Assembly: GCA_002840975.1 (NCBI GenBank)
Contig: PHDN01000011.1
Span: forward strand, 1 to 64,000
Direction: 5' to 3'
DNA: 64,000 bases
Source: Bacteroidetes bacterium HGW-Bacteroidetes-16
GTDB taxonomy: Bacteria > Bacteroidota > Bacteroidia > Bacteroidales > F082
Shown: in pieces, positions 26,186-41,364 of the stretch
Layout of the letters: each line of letters opens with the position of its first letter
How positions within the stretch are numbered: the stretch's first letter is position 1
Notes under the pieces: generated by a model
Database searches by the model: none
Told to the model about the DNA's origin: nothing
The model's input: only the letters and a program-made list of their open reading frames with translations
Position numbers and translations under genes: made by a program

Positions 26186-27019
26186 TTAATCAATAGCCTC
26201 GTGATTTTTTTTCTCGACACTTTTCGCCACGGCAATGGATAATTCATACAACCCAATCAAAGGGATCACCACCAGAATTTGACTAAATACATCAGGAGGA
26301 GTGATGATCGCGGCCACAATGAGCAAAATGACATACATGTATTTTCGTTTATTAATCATAAAGCTGGAAGTAAGAATTCCAATTTTAGTCAGAAAAAAAA
26401 CAAGTATTGGCAATTCGAAGGCTATTCCAACAGCAAATGTAACCGAAACCACCGTGCTGATGTAGGAAGTAAGTGAGATTTGGTTGAGGACACGTTCGCT
26501 CACCTGATAGGTCCCCAGAAAATTTACTGTCAAAGGAACGATTAAAAAATAGCTGAATAGTACACCAAGGAGGAATAAAAAAGAACTGATGATTACACCC
26601 CCGGTAGAATATTTTCGCTCATTTTCGTGCATCGCCGGTCTGATGAACCGCCATGTTTCCCAAAGTACATAAGGAAATGCCAAAATAAAACCCGCAACCA
26701 TCGAAATATACATGTGGGTAAGAAACTGCCCCGACATGCTAATATTGATGATTTGCAACTTCATGTCTTTTATACACAAGGCATCTATATTTAGCCATTG
26801 TCCGGCCATACATAACATGCGATTTGTAATAAAATCGGAAGTGCTCGGCCCGAGAATAACATAATCGAAAATAAATACCCGGTTCGAAAAAGCGACAACT
26901 GCGATGATAACTACCGCGATGAGTGACCGAAGAATATGCCAACGCAACTCCTCCAAATGATCCCAAAAGGTCATTACTTTTTCCTTTTTAACCTTCTTTT
27001 TTGATTTTACTTCTTCCAT
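26186..27019 (-). CDS. tatC: Twin-arginine translocase subunit TatC
   Basis: 277 aa with six membrane helices. The TatC signature F-W-D-H-L-E-E-L-R-W-H-I appears near the N-terminus after a lysine-rich stretch, and F-P-Y-V-L-W-E-T-W-R-F and F-A-V-G-I-A-F-E-L-P lie further on. TatC recognises twin-arginine signal peptides and exports folded cofactor proteins. A plausible client in this window is the molybdoenzyme at 31889 (R-R-E-F-I-K); the Rieske protein at 40969 (R-R-L-F-I-K) may be another. tatA is not seen here. The start at 27019 follows a minus-strand promoter, and the longer frame to 27112 passes through it. Confidence 0.95.
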   Translation of the reverse strand: MEEVKSKKKVKKEKVMTFWDHLEELRWHILRSLIAVVIIAVVAFSNRVFIFDYVILGPSTSDFITNRMLCMAGQWLNIDALCIKDMKLQIINISMSGQFLTHMYISMVAGFILAFPYVLWETWRFIRPAMHENERKYSTGGVIISSFLFLLGVLFSYFLIVPLTVNFLGTYQVSERVLNQISLTSYISTVVSVTFAVGIAFELPILVFFLTKIGILTSSFMINKRKYMYVILLIVAAIITPPDVFSQILVVIPLIGLYELSIAVAKSVEKKNHEAID

Positions 27020-27034
27020 CTTTAAATAAAAATC

Positions 27035-27042
27035 CAAAATTA
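27035..27042 (-). promoter_or_regulatory. -7 element for tatC
   Basis: Minus strand TAATTTTG (TAnnTTTG) lies 16 nt before the tatC ATG. Confidence 0.5.
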
Positions 27043-27143
27043 GCAAAACCTGGGAATGAATGAGCCTCAAAAATAAATGTTTGCAAACAGCTTCTTTTTT
27101 TTCAACTGCCACTTGTCGATTCCATTGGCAAAATCAAAATTGT

Positions 27144-27172: not shown

Positions 27173-27227
27173 ACATGCCACAACATAAAATTAAGTTTTG
27201 TCTACTTTAAAGGAATTGACCAAGGCC

Positions 27228-27923
27228 ATGAAAAGAATAAGTGAAATTGAATCGTGTAGTACATGTATTTATAGAAAACTTTTATTTGATAAGCTATCTG
27301 AGGTTGAGCACAAAATAGTAAATGATTCGAGAATCGAGTATCTGTGCGCCAAGGGTGAGATATTAAAAAAAGAAGGTCAGAAGATCCAGTCGTTTATGTA
27401 TTTGCGAAAGGGCCTTGTGAAGATTTACAAAACAGATAAATATGGGAAAGACCACATCCTCGGGATTAGTCGTCCTGGTGAGTTTATTAATTTATTAAGT
27501 GTTTTTTCTGGTAGTTTGTACAATTATTCTGTAGCCGCTATAGAGGAAACCCAGGTGTGCGAAATCAAGCTGACCGCCATGAAAAGTGTGATCAAATCAA
27601 ATCACCAGTTTTCACTTCGGTTATTGAATAGAATAAGCAAAATGTCAGAAGAGATGATCGCCATTCAGTTCGATCTCAACCAAAAACAAGTGCGCGGCAG
27701 AGTTGCTTATGTTTTACTCATGTTGGCCGACAGGATATTTAAGAGTTATGAATTCAAGATGCCAATTACCCGGCGCGAAGTAGGTGAAATGATCTCCATG
27801 ACAACGGAAAATACCATCCGCACATTATCCGAATTTCGTAAGGATGGCATCATCGATATTACCGGAAAAAATATTCGGATTCGTGATTACCAGCGATTGG
27901 TAACAGTTTCAAAAAACGGATAA
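27228..27923 (+). CDS. Crp/Fnr family transcriptional regulator (copy 1)
   Basis: 231 aa. A cyclic-nucleotide-binding-like beta-roll (residues about 30-150, with G-E-I-L-K-K-E-G and L-R-K-G-L-V-K-I) is followed by a dimer helix and a winged helix-turn-helix (M-P-I-T-R-R-E-V-G-E-M-I-S-M-T-T-E-N-T-I-R-T-L). The N-terminus carries a Cys pair in E-S-C-S-T-C, recalling FNR-type sensors, though further cluster ligands are not evident. The start ATG 27228 is preferred to TTG 27198, which sits in a promoter-like TTTTG. It ends 14 nt from the convergent end of the psr operon. Three relatives lie further on, so a role in controlling sulfur respiration is likely but inferred. Confidence 0.87.
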   Translation: MKRISEIESCSTCIYRKLLFDKLSEVEHKIVNDSRIEYLCAKGEILKKEGQKIQSFMYLRKGLVKIYKTDKYGKDHILGISRPGEFINLLSVFSGSLYNYSVAAIEETQVCEIKLTAMKSVIKSNHQFSLRLLNRISKMSEEMIAIQFDLNQKQVRGRVAYVLLMLADRIFKSYEFKMPITRREVGEMISMTTENTIRTLSEFRKDGIIDITGKNIRIRDYQRLVTVSKNG

Positions 27924-27937
27924 TCAGAAGTAAGTAG

Positions 27938-28582
27938 TTAACAACCACCTTCTACAGCCTTGTTTTTTTTCTTGCGCTCAACAGCAACATTAGCCTTTGG
28001 TTCGGGAGTATCATTGTCATTGTTTGAAACAGAGCTGCCTTTAGCCACTTCAGCATAGTCGTATTGAGCATTGCCAATAAAATACGAATCATCGCTGTAG
28101 GAGTCACCCAGCTTATCTTTCCATACATTGTAATAAGAATATCCTCCCATGAGGACCTTTACATTATCGAAACCAATTTGACGCAATAACATATAGGGTC
28201 CGTTGGCTTCCACCAGGTTATTGCCATATATAAGCACTACCTGACCGGCATCTTTAAGTGCTTCCAGCCTCTTGATGTTTTCTTTGGAGATTAATTCTAC
28301 TGCTGAAATATTTTCGGCTCCCGGAATATGACCCCTGCCAAACTGGAATGTATTGCGGATGTCGACCAGAACAATGGTATCGATGGTTTTATTCAGGATA
28401 TCCTCCAGCTCGTATGGATAGAAGAAACCTTCTTCCGAACCGGCTAACATGACTGTTTCTTCGGGAGTGATTGCGTAATTCAATCGTGGTTTGGAAAGGG
28501 TAACCAAACCAATTATAATAACGATGACAAAGATGATCATGGTGACCATCGTCTTCTTTGGATTTAATTCGTGTACGTGCAT
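27938..28582 (-). CDS. Membrane-anchored rhodanese-fold protein lacking the active-site Cys, with C-terminal Gly-Gly-Cys tail (copy 1)
   Basis: 214 aa. One N-terminal membrane helix (residues about 11-30) is followed by a periplasmic rhodanese domain (about 55-160) with V-L-V-D-I-R-N, G-H-I-P-G-A and the active-site loop V-L-I-Y-G-N-N-L. The catalytic cysteine that should follow I-Y is Gly120, so normal sulfurtransferase chemistry is impossible there. After an acidic linker the protein ends E-R-K-K-K-N-K-A-V-E-G-G-C. The last residue is its only cysteine. The tail matches the next protein and one at 36116. Last gene of the psr operon, 20 nt after its paralogue. I infer a sulfur-carrying flexible arm; no such family is known to me. 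Confidence 0.85.
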   Translation of the reverse strand: MHVHELNPKKTMVTMIIFVIVIIIGLVTLSKPRLNYAITPEETVMLAGSEEGFFYPYELEDILNKTIDTIVLVDIRNTFQFGRGHIPGAENISAVELISKENIKRLEALKDAGQVVLIYGNNLVEANGPYMLLRQIGFDNVKVLMGGYSYYNVWKDKLGDSYSDDSYFIGNAQYDYAEVAKGSSVSNNDNDTPEPKANVAVERKKKNKAVEGGC

Positions 28583-28602
28583 GATTTCATTTATTTGAAT
28601 GA

Positions 28603-29214
28603 TTAACAACCCCCTTCAGCTGCCTTGGCTTTTTTCTTTCTGGATACAACTACTTCCGCTTGCGGACTTTTATCAATGCTGATCGATCCACCAGTAAAGT
28701 ACTGGCTGGCTCCCTGGCGGAAAGCATACAGGTTAAACTCGGCTTCGGAGGCAGTTTCTGCAGGTGCTTCGGGCTGAATAATGGTTTGTATCCAACGGTT
28801 TAAACCACCTTTGAGCACATAAATATTCTTCAACCCCAATCGTTTGGCAATCACCCACGCCTGATCCGATTTCAGGTCATCGTTTGAGTAGAAAACAAGA
28901 TTTCGTTTATTAAAAGTCAATGCAGATCTTGCGTCATCCAAAGCCAGACTGTCGAGGGGGAAATTAATGGCATTGGTTAATGAAAATAACTGAAAATCTT
29001 CTGCCGATCTCACATCAACCATCATCAGCAACGGATCGTGTTCGATGATCATCTTGGCTACCTCGTCGGTAGAAACGTAACGTGTAGGTTGAACAATGTC
29101 CCACATCAGCACTTCAGGATCCAGCTGTTTGGAGTTGTTCTTTAAGGGCAATACCAGCAATCCGGCTGCGAGCAGAATGAGGATTCCCATCAGGATAATA
29201 TAATTTTTATTCAT
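28603..29214 (-). CDS. Membrane-anchored rhodanese-fold protein lacking the active-site Cys, with C-terminal Gly-Gly-Cys tail (copy 2)
   Basis: 203 aa. The N-terminal membrane helix spans about residues 5-24 and there is no lipobox, so the protein is anchored by the helix with the rest in the periplasm. The rhodanese domain (about 45-145) has M-V-D-V-R-S-A-E-D-F and L-K-G-G-L-N-R-W. The loop residue expected to be the catalytic cysteine is Ser110 (V-F-Y-S-N-D-D). It ends S-R-K-K-K-A-K-A-A-E-G-G-C. As in the neighbouring paralogue the final cysteine is the only one in the protein. It lies 4 nt downstream of the YeeE/YedE gene, in the same operon as the PsrABC-like complex, which would face the same side of the membrane. 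Confidence 0.86.
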   Translation of the reverse strand: MNKNYIILMGILILLAAGLLVLPLKNNSKQLDPEVLMWDIVQPTRYVSTDEVAKMIIEHDPLLMMVDVRSAEDFQLFSLTNAINFPLDSLALDDARSALTFNKRNLVFYSNDDLKSDQAWVIAKRLGLKNIYVLKGGLNRWIQTIIQPEAPAETASEAEFNLYAFRQGASQYFTGGSISIDKSPQAEVVVSRKKKAKAAEGGC

Positions 29215-29218
29215 CGAA

Positions 29219-29821
29219 TTAGAATTTATACTGAATCATGTTTTTCCTTACCCTGAGTTCAATGCGCCAGGTTATGTAAAAGGCAACTACTGCAATAACA
29301 ACAAAAATGAGGGTAACCAGGTTATTCGAAATTCCGAAGAATTCTCCGATGGTGATGCTGCCCATATTACCTGAATAGTAGAACTGCTCAAAAAACGGGA
29401 AAAATTCAGAAAACAGAAATATTCCTAAAAACAAACCGCCCGTAAATACCATGGCGTCGATTTTGCCAATGGCGATGGCAGTATAACTTGTCCCGGGACA
29501 AAATCCGCCCAAAACAAATCCAACGCCCATAATAATGGCTCCCACAATCATGGGGCTTAAGAAGGTTGGAAGCACATAAATCTGATTCAGGTCGATCCAT
29601 CCGAAATAATCAAAGTACTGAAGGCCAATCATGGCCACCACAACGGCGGTAAAAAATACACGCAGAACGACAAAGTTATACCCGTAAAATACGCCTGTAA
29701 TGTTTCGTGAGGAGGAAAATCCGGAGGCTTCCAATACAAACCCAAAAGCGATGCCTATTAACAGAGCGATCACAAAATCCCAACCCATTGGTATTATTCC
29801 CTGTGGTATTAAAGGTCCCAT
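29219..29821 (-). CDS. YeeE/YedE family sulfur transporter, half-size subunit B
   Basis: 200 aa, about half of full-length TsuA/YeeE, with five or six membrane helices. The conserved cysteine motif of the family is present as G-G-F-C-P-G-T-S-Y (cysteine near residue 103). In characterised YeeE (thiosulfate uptake) such buried cysteines pass thiosulfate through the channel. It contains F-V-L-E-A-S-G-F-S-S-S-R-N, also typical. Paired with a second half-size gene 22 nt upstream, so the two halves presumably assemble to a complete transporter. In this locus it could move thiosulfate or a related sulfur species across the inner membrane. Confidence 0.87.
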   Translation of the reverse strand: MGPLIPQGIIPMGWDFVIALLIGIAFGFVLEASGFSSSRNITGVFYGYNFVVLRVFFTAVVVAMIGLQYFDYFGWIDLNQIYVLPTFLSPMIVGAIIMGVGFVLGGFCPGTSYTAIAIGKIDAMVFTGGLFLGIFLFSEFFPFFEQFYYSGNMGSITIGEFFGISNNLVTLIFVVIAVVAFYITWRIELRVRKNMIQYKF

Positions 29822-29843: not shown

Positions 29844-30386
29844 CTAAATCCATAATTTTCTGAAAAAGTAAGCTACCACGTAGCCGGTGCCAAACATCAA
29901 GAGCATCACCAGCAATCCACCAAAAGAGGACGATGCCGTTCCACTGAGTGCGGCTCCGCTGGAGCAACCTCTTCCAAACTGGCTTCCGATACCAAACAAA
30001 ATGCCTCCGATACCGGCTGCAAACAGCCTTGTTTTATTGGTAATGTTGGGCGATTTTTCGATGCGCAGTTTTTTAATTCTGCCAAAGAGAGCTCCCGAAA
30101 GTAAACCTCCGATAAAAATACCAAACGACTCAAAAACCAACCAGTTGAACATGGGAGAATGGTCATCGGTAATAAAGGCTTTCATGTAAGTATTTTGCTC
30201 AGCATGGTCAGGTGCTACTTTATCAACTGTAGTCACTACTGCACTTTTAACAGCGCCGCTGGCGCCCAATCCTCTTCCTGTGATATAAAAAGTGATTAAT
30301 AGCACCAGTCCGAGCAGTACCCCACCAAAATACGGATTGATGTATTTTGGTCGATCTTGAATATCTATTTCTTGATTCATGTTCAA
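29844..30386 (-). CDS. YeeE/YedE family sulfur transporter, half-size subunit A
   Basis: 180 aa with four or five membrane helices. Family motifs are G-R-G-L-G-A-S-G-A near residue 33 and F-G-R-G-C-S-S-G-A-A-L-S-G near residue 138, the latter carrying the transport cysteine. A periplasmic loop lies in between. It is the partner of the gene at 29219, and together they equal one full-length YeeE/YedE. Position directly after the NrfD-like gene (12 nt) ties sulfur-compound transport to the molybdoenzyme complex. The substrate (thiosulfate, sulfide or other) is inferred from the family only. Confidence 0.87.
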   Translation of the reverse strand: MNMNQEIDIQDRPKYINPYFGGVLLGLVLLITFYITGRGLGASGAVKSAVVTTVDKVAPDHAEQNTYMKAFITDDHSPMFNWLVFESFGIFIGGLLSGALFGRIKKLRIEKSPNITNKTRLFAAGIGGILFGIGSQFGRGCSSGAALSGTASSSFGGLLVMLLMFGTGYVVAYFFRKLWI

Positions 30387-30398
30387 AAACTTTTAAAA

Positions 30399-31340
30399 TT
30401 AATACAGATAACGCGTAATTTGTCCTGCTTCAACCATAACAAACCTAAATACAAGGCCGCCAAAAAGAATGAGCAAGGCAGGAATCCAGATAGGGATATG
30501 AAATCCCCTCAGTTCAAGTATTTCTAGAACTGCCGGGAATGCAAGTCCAAGGATGACGACAAAAACCCAAAAAGTTACCGTGAACTGACCTCCAAGAAAT
30601 AACTCCGCCGCTTCCACTTGTACCGCAGTAGCTGAAAGGAAACCCATGAACAAATGCACGATTAAAAACAACTCAACTGCAATAAGGACGATGTCAATCT
30701 GACTCATAATCCTTCTTTCTGTTTTGTTTTTCGACATCCAGATGATTGTGGCCAGTCCGGTCGACAAGCCGGAAACCAGAAACAAAGGTCCTAAAATAGA
30801 AGTGTTCCATAAGGGACGTGCATTGAACGCAGAAAGTAATATGCCTGTGTAAACGCCCAGTACAACAGCTAAAAACATCATGATCCAAGCCATTTCTCTC
30901 CGTTTTTTGGCAAAAAAGTCGATGGTTTGTTCTATCAATTTAGATTTCCAATTCCAGTTTGGAACGGCCTCTTTAAGGTAAGTAGCAGACCATATCATCG
31001 AAAGAGGTGTCACAAGCATCAGTGTCCAGGCTCCCCACGACATGGGTGATCCCATTCGTACGGTAGTATAAAGTCGCCAAAAATACATCTCATGTTTTAA
31101 GTCGAGAAAAAGAGCAAAAAGCCCAAGGACTAAGGCTATAGGCACTAAAAATGGTGCCCATTTAACTGTTGTTGCCATTTCTTTTTCCTTACCCATAATG
31201 GTAAATAATCCTGCAAAAAACATGATGCCGGCGGCAATGCCTCCCAGGTAAAGATAGAGTGGGATTTGCCAGTGCCATATATTTAGAAAAGGGTCTATGT
31301 TCGGGATATCGCGTCCACTAATAAATAATTCTTCTTTCAT
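30399..31340 (-). CDS. NrfD/PsrC-type membrane subunit of polysulfide/thiosulfate reductase
   Basis: 313 aa with eight or nine membrane helices, of the NrfD/PsrC family. These subunits anchor a molybdoenzyme and its ferredoxin to the membrane and oxidise menaquinol without haem. Typical features are W-H-W-Q-I-P-L-Y-L-Y-L-G-G at helix 1 and F-L-D-L-K-H-E-M-Y-F-W-R between helices 2 and 3. S-P-M-S-W-G-A-W and the C-terminal R-F-V-M-V-E-A-G-Q follow. It lies 18 nt after the ferredoxin gene. It should donate electrons from the quinol pool to the periplasmic subunits. Confidence 0.92.
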   Translation of the reverse strand: MKEELFISGRDIPNIDPFLNIWHWQIPLYLYLGGIAAGIMFFAGLFTIMGKEKEMATTVKWAPFLVPIALVLGLFALFLDLKHEMYFWRLYTTVRMGSPMSWGAWTLMLVTPLSMIWSATYLKEAVPNWNWKSKLIEQTIDFFAKKRREMAWIMMFLAVVLGVYTGILLSAFNARPLWNTSILGPLFLVSGLSTGLATIIWMSKNKTERRIMSQIDIVLIAVELFLIVHLFMGFLSATAVQVEAAELFLGGQFTVTFWVFVVILGLAFPAVLEILELRGFHIPIWIPALLILFGGLVFRFVMVEAGQITRYLY

Positions 31341-31358: not shown

Positions 31359-31892
31359 TTATGTAAGAAAATATAACTGTGGTTTGGTACCTGCCTCAGG
31401 TGCTAACACTTTCCATGATCTGTTTTTAAGTGCCAGAGAGACATCACTGTAGGGATCTTCGATGTCGCCAAAATGTAAACATTTTGTTGGGCATACATCC
31501 ACACAAGCAGTGTTTTGGCCCTTTTCCAGGCGGTGCTGACAAAATGTACATTTATCCACATATCCATCCGGATGTGAATACCGTGCATCGTAAGGACATG
31601 ATTGAATACAAGCACCACAACCTATACACTCATCGTGGGTAACCATCACAATTCCGCCTTCAACAGTATGACTTGCTCCTGTCGGGCAGCAGCGCACACA
31701 GGGTGCATTTTCACAATGATTGCATCGCTCAGAACGGAGTTCAATTTCTACAATTGGATAGGCTCCGCTTACATTTTCAACAATCCAGTCACGGCAATAG
31801 CCATGAGGAACATTATTCTCAGTTTGACAGGCTACAACACAGTCGCTGCACCCGACACATTTTTTTGTGTCAATTGCCATTGCGTATCTCAT
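31359..31892 (-). CDS. PsrB-type four-cluster ferredoxin subunit
   Basis: 177 aa, the size of DmsB/PsrB/NrfC electron-transfer subunits. Four cysteine clusters for [4Fe-4S] binding are visible: C-V-G-C-S-D-C-V-V-A-C near residue 12, C-N-H-C-E-N-A-P-C-V-R-C-C-P, C-I-G-C-G-A-C-I-Q-S-C-P and C-T-F-C-Q-H plus a later C-V-D-V-C-P-T-K-C. No signal peptide is present; such subunits are exported together with the Tat-signal catalytic subunit. Its start overlaps the end of the molybdoenzyme gene by 4 nt (ATGA), so translation is coupled. Confidence 0.94.
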   Translation of the reverse strand: MRYAMAIDTKKCVGCSDCVVACQTENNVPHGYCRDWIVENVSGAYPIVEIELRSERCNHCENAPCVRCCPTGASHTVEGGIVMVTHDECIGCGACIQSCPYDARYSHPDGYVDKCTFCQHRLEKGQNTACVDVCPTKCLHFGDIEDPYSDVSLALKNRSWKVLAPEAGTKPQLYFLT

Positions 31893-34135
31893 GCTTCAGC
31901 CTCCTTTCCAGGTTTTTCTGTAATGAAGGTCACAAAATTCCCCCTCATTCCGGTTCCTCCCATCATTGGATCCACCATAACGTTTGTAATTAATTGTGTA
32001 TCACTTGCACCCCTTCCAAAGGTGCGTGTAAGTTTTTTATTGTCGTGTCCGAAACCATGAACCATATAGACTGAGTCCCATCTGATTCGCTCCGTCACTC
32101 GTACTTTAATCGGAAATGTAGATACAATTCCATCCTGGTTTTGAAGCCATATTTTTTGACCGGTTTTCAGATCCCACAATTCTGCAACTTTAGGATTGAT
32201 CCAAACGGAATTTTCATTCATCAAATCAAACAAATTGTGGTTGTTGGAGGTACGTGAAAAGGTATGCATGGGTGCCCGGCCATATATTAACCGGTAGAAA
32301 CCGTCTTCAGGTTCCGGATGCTTGGTGAATTTTGGCATGGGATCGAATCCTAATTCGGCAAATTCGGTTGAATAAAGTTCTATTTTTCCACTGTTTGTAT
32401 TAAAATGGTATTCTTCGCCATCAGCAAGATAGAGTGGTCCTGACTTTCGGTTGAACATCTTAATGCCAATCTTTTTCATCTCATCCAGTGAAGTACCCAT
32501 TTTTTTTAATTGCCAATCAAGAACTTCTGAGAAATCATCGTAGTCAAAAAAATCGCCTAATCCCAGGCGCTCGCCCAGTTGTTTTGCTATCCACCACGAT
32601 GGTTTTGTTTCGTATTTTGGTTCCACTGCCGGCATACGGATTGCAATGTTTGGTTCCCGATGTGGCGCTGCTCTTAGTGTGTCGTAGCGTTCCAGGTAGG
32701 TACATTCAGGGAGAACAACATCCGCATACCCGGTGATGTCCATGGGCATGGTATCTACAACTACAATAAATTCAACCGCTTCTGCAGCTGTTTTAAATAG
32801 CTCTTTGTTCGGTATCGTCAATGGGAGATTTGTTCCGGCCACCATCCAAGCTTTTATTTGATGCTTATATCCAAACTCAGGAATAGAGGCTGCTAAAAGC
32901 TCGGTTGTAATAGCCATAGAGGAAAGGGGATACTTTCCGTCCAGGTTATCTTTCCAGCTCCATTCGGTATGAGGATATTGTGGGTGCGGATATTTTGGGA
33001 CAGAGATGGCTTCTTTAAAATAGAATCCGCCTCTTTTCCCCCATGAACCCAGGAGGGCATTTAAAATGGCAATGGCACGTTCGCGCTGGCTGTCGTCACC
33101 ATACCAAACTACGTGGCGTCCTGGATGTACAATAACAGCTGGTGCTGCATTGGCCATTTCACGGGCTGTTTTTCTGATAATGGAAGGTTCTATGGTTGTA
33201 ATACCATAGGCCCATTCGGGTGTCATGTCTTTTACGTGCTCCTTTAGCTGTTCGAAGCCCATGGTGTACTGCTCTACATAATCTTTGTTAAACAGGCCTT
33301 CATATATTAACACATGAATCCATGAAAGCAACAGTGCCAGGTCGGTAGCTGGTTTAATCGGCAGCCAGTATTTTGATTTGCTGGCCACAGTACTTAATCG
33401 GGGATCAACTGTAATGATTGTTGCATTTCTACCAATGATATCTGCTACTTCCTGAACCTGACCATTGTGCATGTTTTCGCCAATATGCGAACCAATTAAT
33501 ACAAGACAGTTTGTGTCGCGAATGTCGGTTGGCTCCGGGGACCCAATCCAGCTCCCGAAGGTAGCCGAAAACCCAACTTCACGGGGACCGCGACATTGTG
33601 CCCAGGCAGGCTCGCCTTCATTTTCACTTCCGTAAGCGTGCAACAGATGTTTAAAATGTTCTCCAGGTGCTCCATGATTAAATAAGGCAAAGGATTCAGG
33701 TCCATATTTGTCAGCCACGTCTTTCATTTTCGAAGCTACCAAATCCAGTGCTTCTTTCCAGGAGGCTTTTCTAAAAACCTGTTCTCCATTTACAGTCTCA
33801 CGGATGAGTGGGGTTTTTAACCGATCTTCATCAGTGTACATACCCACGCCACCGGTGCCTCTTGGGCAAAGGCGGCCATTACAGTGCGGATCCTCTTTGT
33901 TGCCTATGATCTTGCGGATGTTTTTATGTTTGTCAACATAAGTCCATCCGGCGCATTTCCAAAAGCACACTTCGCAATAGGTTGGAAAGGACGTCATTTC
34001 TTCGTCGCTTACCGCCGTTTGATCGATGGCAGCATTGGCCAGTTTAAGCCCTGCAATATTGATAGTGCTAAGGCCAATTGCCGCTGCACCGGCACCTACA
34101 GCTGATATTTTTATAAACTCTCTTCTTGTTTTCAT
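31889..34135 (-). CDS. Molybdopterin oxidoreductase of the PsrA/PhsA (polysulfide/thiosulfate reductase) type
   Basis: 748 aa from the ATG at 34135. The Tat signal R-R-E-F-I-K followed by an alanine/glycine hydrophobic stretch directs folded export. A [4Fe-4S] site is formed by C-E-V-C-F-W-K-C (C54, C57, C61) with C90 in R-L-C-P-R-G. C181, in A-W-A-Q-C-R-G-P, sits where PsrA/PhsA enzymes have the cysteine ligand of molybdenum. Molybdopterin-guanine dinucleotide binding is spread over the rest, ending with the C-terminal beta-barrel domain. The family reduces polysulfide, thiosulfate or tetrathionate and some members act oxidatively. The rhodanese and YeeE genes favour a zero-valent sulfur or thiosulfate substrate. 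First gene of the seven-gene operon. Confidence 0.92.
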   Translation of the reverse strand: MKTRREFIKISAVGAGAAAIGLSTINIAGLKLANAAIDQTAVSDEEMTSFPTYCEVCFWKCAGWTYVDKHKNIRKIIGNKEDPHCNGRLCPRGTGGVGMYTDEDRLKTPLIRETVNGEQVFRKASWKEALDLVASKMKDVADKYGPESFALFNHGAPGEHFKHLLHAYGSENEGEPAWAQCRGPREVGFSATFGSWIGSPEPTDIRDTNCLVLIGSHIGENMHNGQVQEVADIIGRNATIITVDPRLSTVASKSKYWLPIKPATDLALLLSWIHVLIYEGLFNKDYVEQYTMGFEQLKEHVKDMTPEWAYGITTIEPSIIRKTAREMANAAPAVIVHPGRHVVWYGDDSQRERAIAILNALLGSWGKRGGFYFKEAISVPKYPHPQYPHTEWSWKDNLDGKYPLSSMAITTELLAASIPEFGYKHQIKAWMVAGTNLPLTIPNKELFKTAAEAVEFIVVVDTMPMDITGYADVVLPECTYLERYDTLRAAPHREPNIAIRMPAVEPKYETKPSWWIAKQLGERLGLGDFFDYDDFSEVLDWQLKKMGTSLDEMKKIGIKMFNRKSGPLYLADGEEYHFNTNSGKIELYSTEFAELGFDPMPKFTKHPEPEDGFYRLIYGRAPMHTFSRTSNNHNLFDLMNENSVWINPKVAELWDLKTGQKIWLQNQDGIVSTFPIKVRVTERIRWDSVYMVHGFGHDNKKLTRTFGRGASDTQLITNVMVDPMMGGTGMRGNFVTFITEKPGKEAEA

Positions 34136-35033: not shown

Positions 35034-35709
35034 ATGGGAAACTGTAGTATATGTGCGATCAGGTCGAAGGCTGTGGATGCGCTAAATCCAACAGAGGTTG
35101 AGTATTTGCAGGGGAATTGTGCTGAAGTCGACATGAAACCAGGAGAAAGCATTATTAAAGAAGACTCTCTTTCTTCACATACTGCATACCTTAAAACGGG
35201 ACTTGCCACGATTCATAAAATGGGTAAAAGGAACTGATCAGATATTAAAAATATTACAACCAGGTTGTTACATTGGCATGCAGACAGTATTATCAAATAA
35301 AATTCACCACTATTCTGCTTCAGCCGTCGAGGACTCTACAATTTGTTATATCGACATTGCCTCATTTAAGGATTTGATTTCGCGAAATGCACAATTTGCC
35401 AATGAGCTTATTTTGTATTTATGCCGGGACAAACTCTCTTATTTTGCCCGGTATGTAAATGTACACCAAAAGCAAGTAGATGGCAGGTTGGCCGATACCA
35501 TCCTGTTCTTTTCGGATAAAGTTAAAAAATCCAGGAGTTTTCAGATTCCATTATCACGCAATGATATTGCTGCCCTGATTTGTGCAACTCGTGAGAGCGT
35601 TACCCGATCCATCAAGGATTTATCAGACATAGGGAGTATCCGTGTAAAAAGAAAATCGTTTGAAATACTGAATTATGATTTGCTAAAAATAATTAACGAA
35701 AAGGGATAA
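35034..35709 (+). pseudogene. Crp/Fnr family regulator (copy 2), interrupted by a frameshift
   Basis: From ATG 35034 the frame encodes M-G-N-C-S-I-C-A-I-R-S-K and the first half of the sensor domain. After M-G-K it shifts and stops at TGA 35235-35237. The next frame continues without loss (K-G-T-D-Q-I-L-K-I-L-Q-P-G) to a full helix-turn-helix (L-S-R-N-D-I-A-A-L-I-C-A-T-R-E-S-V-T-R-S) and stops at 35709. Removing one A of the AAAA at about 35225-35228 restores a protein of about 224 aa. This is either a recent inactivating mutation or a sequencing error. The N-terminal CxxC is shared with copy 1. If truly broken, the locus has three working copies. Confidence 0.75.
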
Positions 35710-36115: not shown

Positions 36116-37021
36116 TTAGCACCCTCCGTCAGAAGCGGATTCTTTCATTTTTTTTGTCGGTGCAACAGATGCTTTTGTATCAAGCCGATTGCCTTTTACT
36201 TCCCATTCCTTATATGCACCATCGTAAACCTTTACATTAGTCCACCCCATTTCATTTGTAAGGGCTGTATAGATGACTGCCGCAATAATTCCGGTATTGC
36301 AATAGATAACAATAGGTTGGTTAGGGGTTAATTTGTATTGAGCAATCAGGGATTCGAGCTCCGATTTGGATTTAAATGCCTCTGAAGGTGTTAGTACTTC
36401 TTTGTAGTTGATGTTGATGGCTCCGGGAATATGGCCTTTGCTTTTCTCTGAAGCACCGGTAAATTCTTCTGAAGTTCTGGCATCAATGATCAATGCTTTA
36501 CCCTCTTTTACATAAGCCATGTCGGCAATTATTGCATCGTTTACTTTTGAAGTAAAGGTAGTTGCTGCTCTTTTCACTGGCATTTTCGTGATAGGCACCC
36601 TTACTTTTCTCCAATTGTCCATGTCTTTTTGGAGAATTTTTACATTTGGCGCTCCTAAATATTTCAGTATCCAATATACCCTCGACGAGTATTTCTGAGT
36701 TCCTCCATCATACACAACAATGGTATTGTTATCATTTACCCCTTTTGATGCGAAGATCGCTGCCAATTCAGCGGGACTATTAATTAGTCCCTCAATTTCG
36801 CCCTCTTTTTCCAAAGATTTATAAGGAACATTTACTGCATCTTTTATATGAGCAAGTGTGTAATCCTTTTCTTTGCTGGCATCAATAATAACAACATTTT
36901 TATCTGTTTTGATTAGTTGCATGAACTGTTCAGCTGTGATAATATCCCCCTGTGCCAATGCCGGCATAGCGTAAGCAACAACCATCAGACTAGTTGCAAG
37001 TAAATAGTTAAGCATTTTCAT
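36116..37021 (-). CDS. Periplasmic double-rhodanese sulfurtransferase with C-terminal Gly-Gly-Cys tail
   Basis: 301 aa with a cleavable signal peptide (residues 1-24, ending P-A-L-A-Q). Two rhodanese domains follow, the layout of thiosulfate/3-mercaptopyruvate sulfurtransferases. The first (about 27-140) has Asp105 where the catalytic cysteine should be (V-V-Y-D-G-G). The second (about 160-275) has it, C241, in I-Y-C-N-T-G-I-I-A-A. The protein ends A-P-T-K-K-M-K-E-S-A-S-D-G-G-C; the only two cysteines are C241 and the last residue, C301. A persulfide on C241 could be passed to the tail cysteine. The tail resembles those of the two psr-operon proteins. It is the third gene after a rhodanese lipoprotein and a porin. 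Confidence 0.88.
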   Translation of the reverse strand: MKMLNYLLATSLMVVAYAMPALAQGDIITAEQFMQLIKTDKNVVIIDASKEKDYTLAHIKDAVNVPYKSLEKEGEIEGLINSPAELAAIFASKGVNDNNTIVVYDGGTQKYSSRVYWILKYLGAPNVKILQKDMDNWRKVRVPITKMPVKRAATTFTSKVNDAIIADMAYVKEGKALIIDARTSEEFTGASEKSKGHIPGAININYKEVLTPSEAFKSKSELESLIAQYKLTPNQPIVIYCNTGIIAAVIYTALTNEMGWTNVKVYDGAYKEWEVKGNRLDTKASVAPTKKMKESASDGGC

Positions 37022-37045
37022 TGAATTATTTATTTAGTTTTTGAG

Positions 37046-38149
37046 TTAAAATTTTACCTGGAATTGGATCATAAAAGCGTCATTGTCATACTCATTAACA
37101 ATACCATTGCTTTTGCCTTCTATATTATATACGTAGTTTGCCTGAATCCGTGTCCAATCATTCAGGAAATAATTTACGCCCATGGTTAATGTATTTAGGG
37201 TGTAATTTTGCCCGACTCCCTGGTAGGAATAGGTGGTTCCGTCAGGGTCGTACGCTTCATACTTTACGATGGGTTGTAAATTAATGGGAAACATATATAT
37301 TGCGGCTACCCAAAAGCCGGAGGCTTTGAATACCGGCTCGGTAACAAGAGTAGATTTGCCACCACAACCACCACCGGTTGCAACTTCACCCACTGTAATG
37401 CCATAAATATATTCTCCCTGAAATTTGAAGCTTTTGTAATCAAGAGTCAAGTCGCCGGCATAACGGGTAACACTTTTAACTGTTCCATCTGCGTCAAGAA
37501 TCTTACCAATAAGACCTGTCCGTCCGCTTGCTCCAATATTTATCCACTCATAAGGAGAGTAAACAACGCGACCTGCAATTTCTTTATTGGCATTGTCATC
37601 AAGTACATTGATTCCGGTACCATTTAAAACGGCTACTTTATATGAAATAATGTCTCTGTCTTTTCCGAATGCACCCAGCACCATCAATCCCATATCTCTG
37701 AAAGGAGAGGCGAGGTTATTTACAACCGTTGATCTGTTGATCGTGTTTAGCGCATAACATGGAGTGTTTAACTCCAGTGAAAAAGGTGATTTAAATTGTC
37801 CAATGGAAATCTTCATGTATTTTCCGATGGGTGCGTATGAGATATAGGCGTCAAGTAATTGAGGGCCTCCTGAAACAGGACTTAATTCTGCCATTACATA
37901 ATAGCTTATGTCATATGGTATTGATCCGACAACACCAAAGCGGGCGCGAAGGAATTCAAATGTACTTGGTTTGATTGCGTTTCCATTGGCATCATCACCA
38001 AAATAATAGTAATTAAATTGGGGTTGAATGTATCCAACCAGTTGAGGCCCGTCTGAGGAAGTAGTTTCAACGCATCCTTGAGCTGTTGACAAATTGCTAT
38101 AGGTTAGCGACATCAGAAATAAACCTGCTATGAGGAGAACTTTTTTCAT
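37046..38149 (-). CDS. OprP/OprO-like outer-membrane porin
   Basis: 367 aa with a signal peptide (MKKVLLIAGLFLMSLTYSN, cleavage after S-T-A-Q). The mature protein is built of amphipathic beta strands. An early F-E-F-L-R-A-R-F-G-V-V-G and G-Q-F-K-S-P-F-S-L-E plus a C-terminal F-Q-V-K-F place it with the phosphate-selective porin O/P group. In Bacteroidota this group includes general anion channels. A loop with the unusual hexapeptide G-G-G-C-G-G (C262) is encoded at 37358-37375. Position between two rhodanese genes suggests it admits thiosulfate or another sulfur oxyanion. Start ATG 38149 chosen over an upstream GTG/ATG frame because the signal peptide begins there. Confidence 0.85.
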   Translation of the reverse strand: MKKVLLIAGLFLMSLTYSNLSTAQGCVETTSSDGPQLVGYIQPQFNYYYFGDDANGNAIKPSTFEFLRARFGVVGSIPYDISYYVMAELSPVSGGPQLLDAYISYAPIGKYMKISIGQFKSPFSLELNTPCYALNTINRSTVVNNLASPFRDMGLMVLGAFGKDRDIISYKVAVLNGTGINVLDDNANKEIAGRVVYSPYEWINIGASGRTGLIGKILDADGTVKSVTRYAGDLTLDYKSFKFQGEYIYGITVGEVATGGGCGGKSTLVTEPVFKASGFWVAAIYMFPINLQPIVKYEAYDPDGTTYSYQGVGQNYTLNTLTMGVNYFLNDWTRIQANYVYNIEGKSNGIVNEYDNDAFMIQFQVKF

Positions 38150-38188
38150 TTTAGTTGTAGATTTTATTGTCAGTAAACAAGATAAACA

Positions 38189-38213
38189 GGCTGACGGTAT
38201 CAATCCGTCAGCC
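38189..38213 (-). terminator. Intercistronic hairpin between rhodanese lipoprotein and porin
   Basis: A perfect 9-bp stem GGCTGACGG/CCGTCAGCC around TATCAAT lies between the stop of the lipoprotein gene (38224) and the porin start (38149). On the minus strand it is followed by TGTTTATCTTGTTT. It could be a partial terminator that lowers downstream expression or an mRNA processing/stability element. Confidence 0.5.
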
Positions 38214-38223
38214 CGGTGATCAT

Positions 38224-39219
38224 TTATTTTGCAAGTGTTCCTTCAAAAGGGAAGCTGTGGTAAGGGAAATGCCAGTTGTTTTTTGAATCGGTTGTTAAGG
38301 CATCATGCATGAGTGCGTTTACACCAAAACTTATGCTTTTTACATTGTATCCCAATACATTCAACCAAGCGGTGGTGATTGAAGAGGTTTGTCCTGTATA
38401 GCAATAAACCAGGTTATTGTTGTCTGGATTAAGTGCATTTGCTGTTGCAAATGAAATAGTTGTATACTGATAAGCACCTGAATAGTGACCATATTTTAAA
38501 TAGTCAGCTTCACCCCAATAGTTATAGATTGAATAATCAACCGGAGCAGCTAAAGCTTCAGCAGCTGTAACATTCCATCCGGAAGCAGTTAGCATTACCT
38601 GTACACGTTCAGCTAAAATGGTGGCTCCATCCGTAGAGGTGGAAGTCCAGGTCGGGTTCAGGTTGACAGGTAAAGTAGCCGAAGCATTGGTATTCCAGTT
38701 GGGGCTGCCAACTGCAATGTTACCCACTTTACTCGTCCAGCTATCGAAGGCTGCATTGTTAGTCCAGGCAGAAAACCCAAACTTAGCTACTTTGGCGCTA
38801 TAGCCAGAGAGACGCAAAGCCATAACAGCGCGGCCTGCTGTTTGTCCGGTATAACAGAAAACCAGGATTGGTTTGTCTTTTCCTACTTCAGCTGCTTTTG
38901 TGAGTACGTTAGCAAGTTCGACATTAATAGCCCCTTTAACATGTCCTTTTTCAAAGTCCGCAGCACTTCTTATATCAAATACATGGTAAGTAGGAATCGT
39001 TCCATCGGGCTCAACAAAGCCACCATCAGCCACGTATTTTGCATCAGTAACCCAGCCATCAAGTAAATCAGGCAGGTCCATGGTATTGGTTGTCATGTAA
39101 GCCTTTAAATCATCGTAGGTGCCAACTACAACAGGATCATCATTCTTGTCTTTACAACTTGTTAAAAACAATGCCGGAATAATCATGGCAATAAATAAAT
39201 AACTAAATAATTTTTTCAT
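38224..39219 (-). CDS. Double-rhodanese lipoprotein
   Basis: 331 aa. Lipobox F-L-T-S-C places the lipidated cysteine at residue 22, so the protein sits on the periplasmic or outer face of the envelope. Two rhodanese domains each keep the catalytic cysteine: C122 in F-C-Y-T-G-Q-T-A-G-R and C273 in Y-C-Y-T-G-Q-T-S-S. The near-identical loops point to an internal duplication. It has no Gly-Gly-Cys tail, unlike three other rhodanese proteins of the locus. A likely role is taking sulfane sulfur from thiosulfate or polysulfide and handing it on. First gene of the operon that also contains the porin and the soluble double rhodanese. Confidence 0.88.
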   Translation of the reverse strand: MKKLFSYLFIAMIIPALFLTSCKDKNDDPVVVGTYDDLKAYMTTNTMDLPDLLDGWVTDAKYVADGGFVEPDGTIPTYHVFDIRSAADFEKGHVKGAINVELANVLTKAAEVGKDKPILVFCYTGQTAGRAVMALRLSGYSAKVAKFGFSAWTNNAAFDSWTSKVGNIAVGSPNWNTNASATLPVNLNPTWTSTSTDGATILAERVQVMLTASGWNVTAAEALAAPVDYSIYNYWGEADYLKYGHYSGAYQYTTISFATANALNPDNNNLVYCYTGQTSSITTAWLNVLGYNVKSISFGVNALMHDALTTDSKNNWHFPYHSFPFEGTLAK

Positions 39220-39418: not shown

Positions 39419-40114
39419 ATGAGCATGCCTGGTTCCTCAAATAGCTGTGTTGTTGAAAATAAACATATGGAGTGTTTTGATGTGTTGACAGAAGCGGAAA
39501 AGGAGTACTTAGAAAAAAATACCATCAGAATTGTTTATAAGAAAGGGGAGGTGATTGCCAAACAAGGTTCGTTTGCATCTCACGTCATATTTTTGGAGAA
39601 AGGGCTGGTGAAAGTATTTATTGGCGGAACTTCAAAAGATTTGATTTTAAAGATTATACCGGCCAGTCACTTTATTGGATTATCCAGCATTTATGAGGGC
39701 AACAATGCATTTATCTATTCCGCATCCACCTATATTGATTCTGAAGCCAGACTGATTGATTTAAGTGTGTTTAAACAACTGCTCATGTCGAATCCTGAGT
39801 TTGCATTCAAAATGTTTAACATACAAAACGAAAATGCAGCCCAGGTTTACGGTCGGTTTTATTGTTTAACACGAAAACAGTCGGCAGGCCTGGTAGCCGA
39901 TTTATTGATTTGTTTATCTGACCGGGTATTTAAAACAAAGAGTTTTTTATTGCCTATTAGCCGCAATGATTTGGCCGATCTTACAGGCTTGTCGGTGGAA
40001 AGCGTTATGCGTATTATGAAAGATTTTAAAGATGATGGAATAATCAGTACCAAAGGGAAGCAGATCAGTGTACTGGAGCCGGATTTGCTCCTTAAAATCA
40101 GTAAGTTCGGATAA
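39419..40114 (+). CDS. Crp/Fnr family transcriptional regulator (copy 3)
   Basis: 231 aa. The sensor beta-roll has K-K-G-E-V-I-A-K-Q-G and F-L-E-K-G-L-V-K-V. A long dimer helix and a helix-turn-helix follow (L-P-I-S-R-N-D-L-A-D-L-T-G-L-S-V-E-S-V-M-R). N-terminal cysteines are C10 and, in H-M-E-C-F, C19. Close in sequence to copy 4 directly downstream (48 nt) and to copy 2. It is divergent from the rhodanese-porin operon, so it probably regulates it. The signal sensed is unknown; persulfide or oxygen sensing through the N-terminal cysteines is a guess. Confidence 0.88.
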   Translation: MSMPGSSNSCVVENKHMECFDVLTEAEKEYLEKNTIRIVYKKGEVIAKQGSFASHVIFLEKGLVKVFIGGTSKDLILKIIPASHFIGLSSIYEGNNAFIYSASTYIDSEARLIDLSVFKQLLMSNPEFAFKMFNIQNENAAQVYGRFYCLTRKQSAGLVADLLICLSDRVFKTKSFLLPISRNDLADLTGLSVESVMRIMKDFKDDGIISTKGKQISVLEPDLLLKISKFG

Positions 40115-40162: not shown

Positions 40163-40864
40163 TTGAATAACATAGTCGATCGCATAAAAGCCAGTTGTAC
40201 AGTTCGCAACCTTAGCTGCAGTTGTTTTGAACACCTCACCGATGAGCAAAAAGAGCTCGTTGAAAAAAATAAGGTGTTGGTTTCATATAAAAAAGGTGAA
40301 ACCATCGTTAAAAAGGGAACCTATGCAAGTCATATTATATTGGTTACCGAAGGTCTGGCGAAGGTTTATTACGAAGAAGGTGATTATAGCATCATTTTGC
40401 GTATTGCTGCGCCCAACAGCCTGATCGGATTAACTTCCTTGCCACTTTACCAAAACACCTTTCAATATACTGCTACGGCTTATGTAAAAACTTCTGTTAA
40501 ACTCATCGATATCAATATTATCAGGCAATTAATTTTGGAAAATGGTCGGTTTGCTACTGCCATTATTGATCTTCTGTGCGAAGGAACTATCCAAAAGAAT
40601 GGTCGTTTTTTTTGCCTGAATCACCGACAGGCGCATGGTAAACTGGCAGATATCATCCTATGCCTTGCCGGAAATATCTATAAACAGAATAAATTCGAGT
40701 TGTTGCTTAGTCGTAAAGAAATGGCCGAACTTTCCGGGATTTCTACCGAAAGTGTAACCCGAATATTGAAGGATTTTCAGGATGATGGACTGATTATAAC
40801 AAGGGGTAAAATATTTGAAGTAGTTGATCCTGACGGATTAATGAAGCTGTGTAAACTTGATTAA
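40163..40864 (+). CDS. Crp/Fnr family transcriptional regulator (copy 4)
   Basis: 233 aa from a TTG start; no ATG is in frame nearby and the N-terminal residues M-N-N-I-V-D-R resemble a usual beginning. It has the beta-roll (Y-K-K-G-E-T-I-V-K-K-G-T-Y-A-S-H) and helix-turn-helix (L-S-R-K-E-M-A-E-L-S-G-I-S-T-E-S-V-T-R). Three cysteines cluster at the N-terminus (C-T-V-R-N-L-S-C-S-C-F) and further cysteines lie in the core. Tandem with copy 3 and likely co-transcribed. Clearly a paralogue, suggesting duplication in the locus. Confidence 0.87.
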   Translation: MNNIVDRIKASCTVRNLSCSCFEHLTDEQKELVEKNKVLVSYKKGETIVKKGTYASHIILVTEGLAKVYYEEGDYSIILRIAAPNSLIGLTSLPLYQNTFQYTATAYVKTSVKLIDINIIRQLILENGRFATAIIDLLCEGTIQKNGRFFCLNHRQAHGKLADIILCLAGNIYKQNKFELLLSRKEMAELSGISTESVTRILKDFQDDGLIITRGKIFEVVDPDGLMKLCKLD

Positions 40865-40968: not shown

Positions 40969-41364
40969 ATGAAGCAAAAATACAACCGACGTCTTTTTAT
41001 AAAATTCATCGCCGCTTTTATGGGATTGTTGTTTCTTGGTTTATGGCAACGAATGGTGGACAGCAAATCGAAAAATGAAATTAAAAAACCGGTGGTGGTG
41101 CCATTGGCCGGTTTAACGGGTGTGAATTTTTTTGAAAAATTTATTGTGATTAAAAAGGATGACCAATTTGAGGTGTTGTCGTCCAAATGTACCCATCTGG
41201 GTTGTAGAATCAATCAGCAGTCGCAGGATAAACTGATGTGCCCGTGCCATGGATCGTCGTATACACTGAATGGTCAGGTGGTTACCGGACCTGCCATAAA
41301 ACCCTTGCCTCAGTTGGCCTACCAGATTAATACCGATCAACAAACCCTGACCGTGGAACTATGA
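40969..41364 (+). CDS. Rieske [2Fe-2S] iron-sulfur protein
   Basis: 131 aa. An N-terminal R-R-L-F-I-K followed by a hydrophobic helix (about 10-26) is a Tat-like signal anchor. The Rieske domain has both cluster-binding boxes, C-T-H-L-G-C and C-P-C-H-G-S, giving a high-potential [2Fe-2S] centre. No third cysteine pair beyond this is needed. It should take an electron from quinol at the Qo site of the cytochrome b encoded next, whose start overlaps this gene by 4 nt (ATGA). The pair is a bc1/b6f-like quinol oxidase module. Confidence 0.94.
   Translation: MKQKYNRRLFIKFIAAFMGLLFLGLWQRMVDSKSKNEIKKPVVVPLAGLTGVNFFEKFIVIKKDDQFEVLSSKCTHLGCRINQQSQDKLMCPCHGSSYTLNGQVVTGPAIKPLPQLAYQINTDQQTLTVEL

Follow-up and report, generated by a model that had tools for sequence, protein, structure and literature searches.

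Sud of Wolinella succinogenes, a periplasmic rhodanese with a single cysteine, supplies polysulfide reductase with sulfur from polysulfide (cited in PMC2754497). Other proteins carry sulfur on a cysteine in a C-terminal arm. In SoxY, the periplasmic carrier of SoxYZ, this arm is Gly-rich and its GGCGG end is the documented sulfur-binding site (PMC6067878). In DsrC/TusE, the penultimate cysteine of a flexible C-terminal arm carries sulfur and enters the reductase (PMC3397948). Moreover, a YeeE-type channel was proposed as the outlet for the sulfur bound to SoxYZ (PMC11582611). Here we analyze two paralogous, membrane-anchored rhodanese-fold proteins, R203 and R214, encoded next to a split YeeE/YedE-type channel in Bacteroidetes bacterium HGW-Bacteroidetes-16. 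They lie in a 64,000-nucleotide stretch (contig PHDN01000011.1, positions 1 to 64,000, assembly GCA_002840975.1), hereafter called the window. A gene neighborhood of psrABC, two Sulf_transp genes and a rhodanese gene was reported as sulfur-related in Candidatus Thermonerobacter, with a psrABC closest to those of Melioribacter and Ignavibacterium (passages of PMC6338057).

Results

R203 and R214 lack the loop nucleophile and end in cysteine

Both proteins scored above the Pfam Rhodanese (PF00581) cut-off (52.5 and 52.1 bits vs. 22.2 bits). Each contains one cysteine only, as the final residue, and where the catalytic cysteine of a rhodanese sulfurtransferase would be expected R203 has Ser110 and R214 has Gly120. 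The respective features are all on the minus strand:

27938..28582, minus strand: R214, membrane-anchored rhodanese-fold protein of 214 residues; loop Gly120, sole cysteine is the terminal Cys214
27941..27976, minus strand: R214 tail, RKKKNKAVEGGC
28223..28225, minus strand: R214 codon 120 (Gly), position of the rhodanese catalytic cysteine
28603..29214, minus strand: R203, membrane-anchored rhodanese-fold protein of 203 residues; loop Ser110, sole cysteine is the terminal Cys203
28606..28641, minus strand: R203 tail, RKKKAKAAEGGC
28885..28887, minus strand: R203 codon 110 (Ser), catalytic position; Ser in 37/37 orthologues

The AlphaFold model of R203 had a mean predicted local distance difference test score (pLDDT) of 90. 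It consists of a helix (residues 3–20), the rhodanese domain, a second helix (residues 157–174) and a low-confidence tail that is predicted to be disordered. Its best structural matches were solved rhodaneses. Translations, Pfam matches and this model thus bear out the preliminary description of the window, which had been made from the DNA alone and had proposed a rhodanese-fold pair with Gly120 and Ser110 loops and single terminal cysteines. From the last helix to Cys203 there are 29 residues, which by simple arithmetic could reach up to about 100 Å if fully extended.

A hydrophobic N-terminal segment was present in 127 of the 134 unfused R203/R214-type copies. Two R214-type orthologues have a lipoprotein start, and related small rhodaneses of a porin cluster (see below) carry clear lipoprotein signals. 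From these lipoprotein relatives, together with the N-terminal helix, we consider it likely that R203 and R214 reside on the periplasmic side.

We examined GGC C-termini in the source genome (3.94 Mb) site by site. The 12-base pattern encoding Gly-Gly-Cys-stop was found at 61 sites, compared with 59 for the reversed control, and is hence not enriched in itself. Among the 61 sites, however, the proteins ending in GGC were only three rhodaneses, all within 9.1 kb of one another, and a short, unrelated open reading frame of 105 residues. No GGC end was found on those other rhodanese reading frames of the genome whose ends were read. The GGC tails in this genome thus exceed chance. The third tail belongs to a protein that the preliminary description had missed and that retains its loop cysteine:

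36116..37021, minus strand: periplasmic two-domain rhodanese, loop Cys241, third GGC tail (...KKMKESASDGGC); candidate active sulfurtransferase

The terminal thiol is conserved and the loop is not

In 37 R203 orthologues, Ser110, Gly202 and Cys203 were invariant. In 33 R214-type proteins the terminal cysteine was likewise invariant and the loop position variable (G, A, C, Y, S or H). Some orthologues have one further residue after the cysteine (S, G, E, D, T or A). As the alignment of the 37 orthologues was too diverse for scanning contigs, YedE2 served as bait, and we examined 160 loci around YedE2 from many genomes (loci are labeled L in the following). A cysteine end, mostly GGC or EGC, was found in 147 of 152 full-length rhodaneses adjacent or fused to YedE2. 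Of the five others, one runs into Ns, two have an in-frame cysteine tail behind a premature stop, and L187 and L240 are considered in the Discussion. In L133 and L184 a premature in-frame stop interrupts the rhodanese frame ahead of the conserved KKKKxEGC tail, due to either sequencing error or decay.

A loop cysteine occurred in just 5 of 186 tail-bearing single-domain copies. The conserved rule is therefore the one put forward in the preliminary description, i.e., the internal nucleophile is lost and the terminal thiol is kept. Orthologues with a loop cysteine and no tail cysteine had been named beforehand as the finding that would overturn this view, and the check did not overturn it. The rule spans at least five phyla, with examples from Bacteroidota, Ignavibacteria, Kapabacteria, Acidobacteria, Opitutaceae (Verrucomicrobia), Calditrichota and Gemmatimonadota. 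A plasmid search yielded one relative, on a Gemmatirosa (Gemmatimonadota) plasmid, with a loop Ser and the tail RRRGC. Selenocysteine at the tail was rejected, because loci apparently without a GGC end carry GGCE, GGCD, GGCS or GGCG with Cys codons. In the R214-type proteins of L016, L020 and L026 the loop has changed to YSDxCGACGPW, a CxxC-like motif.

A split YeeE/YedE channel is the constant neighbor

The preliminary description had placed the pair beside NrfD/PsrC genes. This does not hold, since R203 and R214 adjoin two YedE genes, and the reductase genes follow upstream of these:

29219..29821, minus strand: YedE2, half-size YeeE/YedE channel subunit, PmpB-like; N-terminal half of Sulf_transp, Cys in GGFCPGT
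29844..30386, minus strand: YedE1, half-size YeeE/YedE channel subunit, PmpA-like; C-terminal half of Sulf_transp, Cys in RGCSSG
30399..31340, minus strand: NrfD/PsrC-type membrane quinone subunit (profile matches)
31359..31892, minus strand: PsrB-type 4Fe-4S subunit (profile matches)
31889..34132, minus strand: PsrA/PhsA-type molybdopterin catalytic subunit with Tat signal (profile matches)

The two YedE halves cover positions 2–157 and 175–309 of the Sulf_transp profile (310 positions), and their cysteines are kept (GCxSG in 155/155 YedE1, GGxCPGT in 156/157 YedE2). They hence match the family halves with one cysteine each, as described for PmpA/PmpB (PMC11582611). They scored 28 and 34 bits on the NCBIfam equivalog model of TsuA, below its cut-off of 400 bits. 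In many lineages the rhodanese is fused to YedE2. The predicted fold of a natural YedE2–rhodanese fusion (pLDDT 67 overall, with low confidence in the channel half) was uninformative on contacts.

With molybdopterin, FeS and NrfD subunits all present, the window encodes a reductase of the PhsABC/PsrABC type, an assignment that does not extend to the exact substrate. The top NCBIfam match of the catalytic subunit was thiosulfate reductase PhsA, under the cut-off of that model. Other loci differ in this respect. Among 153 loci, we found PsrABC at 98, an octaheme cytochrome at 39, both at one and neither at 15, several of which are cut by contig ends. The octaheme cytochrome is a member of TIGR04315, the tetrathionate reductase family (578 bits vs. 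a cut-off of 375), and is accompanied by a PhsC-like cytochrome b. The PhsA-like and octaheme alternatives are thus both types of sulfur-compound reductase. PsrA as the defining partner, the view taken in the preliminary description, is not supported, as 39 of the 153 loci have the octaheme cytochrome without PsrABC. The reductase varies while the YedE1/YedE2 pair, which is often fused to the rhodanese, stays. We therefore regard YedE as the constant partner and the reductase as a plug-in.

In L100–L102 and L213–L250, YedE1 and a YedE2–rhodanese fusion lie beside the octaheme and PhsC-like cytochromes, without PsrABC. A third context (L168, L183, L187, L200, L202, L205) combines a two- or three-domain mercaptopyruvate-type rhodanese with YedE1, YedE2 and a rhodanese ending in REVC, RYEC, RDGC or REGC; the one in L187 has no cysteine.

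Tail charge goes with the reductase, and paralogous tails match within genomes

The GC tip is common to Psr-linked and octaheme-linked tails, but the basic stretch before it is not. Three consecutive basic residues were present in 99 of 124 Psr-linked tails, compared with 5 of 61 octaheme-linked tails. The difference held for genomes of the order (47/63 vs. 0/42) as well as for those from beyond it (52/61 vs. 5/19).

In 28 genomes with both paralogues, identity over the last eight residues before the cysteine was 73% for tails of one genome, compared with 44% for tails of different genomes, and none of 20,000 shuffles reached the observed value. The linker 24–40 residues upstream showed no same-genome effect in these 28 genomes, and the rhodanese domains showed a weaker one, as shared ancestry predicts. 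At matching tail residues, synonymous codons agreed in 47% of cases, with 48% expected from codon usage. Recent gene conversion was therefore rejected as the general cause, with one recent case (L017) excepted, and selection on the amino-acid sequence explains the matching. This points to one partner or partner set that would read both tails.

Porin–rhodanese cluster and surroundings

Further features of the window follow the two-domain rhodanese gene:

37046..38149, minus strand: ExtI-like porin, between the two-domain and lipoprotein-like rhodanese genes
38224..39219, minus strand: lipoprotein-like rhodanese, two CYTGQ loops, without tail; homologues beside YedE bear GGC tails

Counterparts of this region (window 36116–39219; porin, two-domain rhodanese, lipoprotein rhodanese) in L277–L287 contain one or two additional small lipoprotein rhodaneses. 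These end in SGGCGG, EGGCGG or GGCGD, and among the GGCGG-type proteins some have a loop Cys and others a Ser instead.

A tatC gene (window 26186–27112) adjoins the cluster, as it does in L064, L065, L085, L090, L091 and L095, which fits a Tat-exported PsrA. The sulfur genes are surrounded by four Crp/Fnr-type regulator genes (window 27198–27923, 35203–35709, 39419–40114 and 40163–40864). Window 40969–44084 encodes a Rieske protein together with a fusion of cytochrome b and a multihaem cytochrome; homologues directly adjoin the psr cluster in L064, L071, L072, L077 and L080.

Discussion

R203 and R214 are neither enzymatic rhodaneses nor SoxY homologues, and we regard them as a probable variant of the thiol-arm carrier. 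They share with SoxY a cysteine in a Gly-rich C-terminal arm, ending in GGC here and in the very GGCGG of SoxY in the sister lipoprotein rhodaneses. In contrast to SoxY, they have another fold, their cysteine is usually the very last residue, and in place of SoxAX, SoxB and SoxCD they have PsrABC or an octaheme reductase as putative partners. A Pfam scan (E ≤ 0.1) yielded Rhodanese only, plus one spurious viral match. DsrC/TusE sets a precedent for an arm with a penultimate cysteine but is cytoplasmic, of other fold and not homologous to R203/R214. By analogy, the nearest functional precedent is Sud. The single Sud cysteine is located in the rhodanese loop, whereas R203/R214 have a loop Ser or Gly, carry their thiol on the tail, are membrane-anchored and are linked to YedE. 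PmpA/PmpB and TsuA, of the YeeE/YedE family, differ from YedE1/YedE2 in that the latter are accompanied by a tailed rhodanese, and the window cluster has no gene for a TusA-like TsuB. For the Ca. Thermonerobacter neighborhood, the passages of PMC6338057 that deal with it mention neither tail cysteine, loop loss, fusions nor the octaheme variant. In the open-access literature, to which our search extended, we found no description of the cysteine tail or of a loop-to-tail move.

Given the loss of the loop nucleophile and the conserved tail, the carrier role suggested in the preliminary description, rather than sulfurtransferase activity, appears to be the best reading. We propose, as the probable function, that a dead rhodanese offers a SoxY- or DsrC-like thiol arm, on which sulfane sulfur would travel between the YedE channel and a reductase in the periplasm. 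R203 and R214 would be non-enzymatic carriers with an inner-membrane anchor and exposed to the periplasm, with the rhodanese fold as scaffold and the disordered, Lys-rich tail with its Gly-Gly-Cys end as the working part. The terminal thiol would take up sulfane sulfur as persulfide, polysulfide or thiosulfonate, and the two-domain rhodanese with its catalytic cysteine (36116–37021) could load the arms. We infer the swinging of the arm, the partners that it contacts and the direction of flow: the arm would move between the active site of the reductase (PsrA here, elsewhere the octaheme cytochrome of tetrathionate-reductase type) and the periplasmic mouth of YedE1/YedE2, whose conserved cysteines would relay the sulfur onward.

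Alternatively, the dead rhodanese might, together with its basic tail, merely hold the reductase in place at the channel or the membrane, with a cysteine that has no role in carrying sulfur. The basic stretch tracks the presence of PsrABC, the tails match within genomes as if one partner read both, and a rhodanese-like membrane protein, TROL, serves as a dock for the flavoenzyme FNR (PMC12295754). Docking, however, would need neither a thiol nor a GGC or GGCGG tip, and it is the cysteine that is invariant and the basic stretch that varies, so that we consider pure docking unlikely. We give somewhat less credit still to a redox role, in which reversible disulfides, between the terminal thiols themselves or with a partner, would pass electrons or gate the channel, with no sulfur carried. 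A single periplasmic thiol could well form mixed disulfides, and the window and many relatives have two tail-bearing paralogues per cluster. Yet most loci have one tail-bearing rhodanese (73/98 Psr and 27/39 octaheme loci), a heterodisulfide is therefore not the rule, and the neighbors are sulfur enzymes and channels. For the same reason of single copies we rejected a tail cysteine that serves solely to pair the two paralogues.

A short conserved C-terminal motif common to several proteins of one compartment would also be expected of a sorting, lipidation or metal-site signal unrelated to sulfur chemistry. GlyGly-CTERM signals differ in having a hydrophobic stretch, which does not precede GGC here. 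One or two residues may follow the cysteine (GGCS, GGCG, GGCGG), and in the source genome the motif is limited to rhodaneses of the sulfur region; such a signal is thus very improbable. At the bottom of the range we place loops that are still catalytic through Ser or a second Cys, with the tail as a passive extra. Ser110 is invariant in the R203 family and a CGAC motif occurs in the loop of some R214 copies, but no persulfide can form on Ser, and the R214 loops drift where the tail does not.

Some observations weigh against the sulfur-carrying thiol arm. Of the YedE2-linked rhodaneses, L187 has no cysteine at all and L240 no tail, though another copy in the L240 cluster is tailed. Five R214-type copies retain the loop cysteine, i.e., the loss is not absolute in the R214 branch. 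Furthermore, the link between tail charge and reductase could partly follow phylogeny, though it was repeated in two separate genome sets.

In wider terms, we may be dealing with a widespread, undescribed class of periplasmic carriers. Here a split YeeE-type channel would be served by the C-terminal thiol arm of a dead rhodanese, a charge code on the arm would select PsrABC or the octaheme cytochrome, and the arm would have converged independently on the SoxY GGCGG end; for this broader proposal we regard the chances as even. Our results also carry a warning, in that many proteins with the annotation rhodanese sulfurtransferase are incapable of this chemistry at the loop. There is neither an agreed substrate of PmpA/PmpB nor an established route by which sulfane sulfur passes between periplasmic reductases and YeeE/YedE-type channels. 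If our proposal is true, there would be a dedicated carrier for this step, conserved across phyla and recognizable by a three-letter tail, which would link YeeE/YedE channels to thiosulfate/polysulfide and tetrathionate-type reductases.
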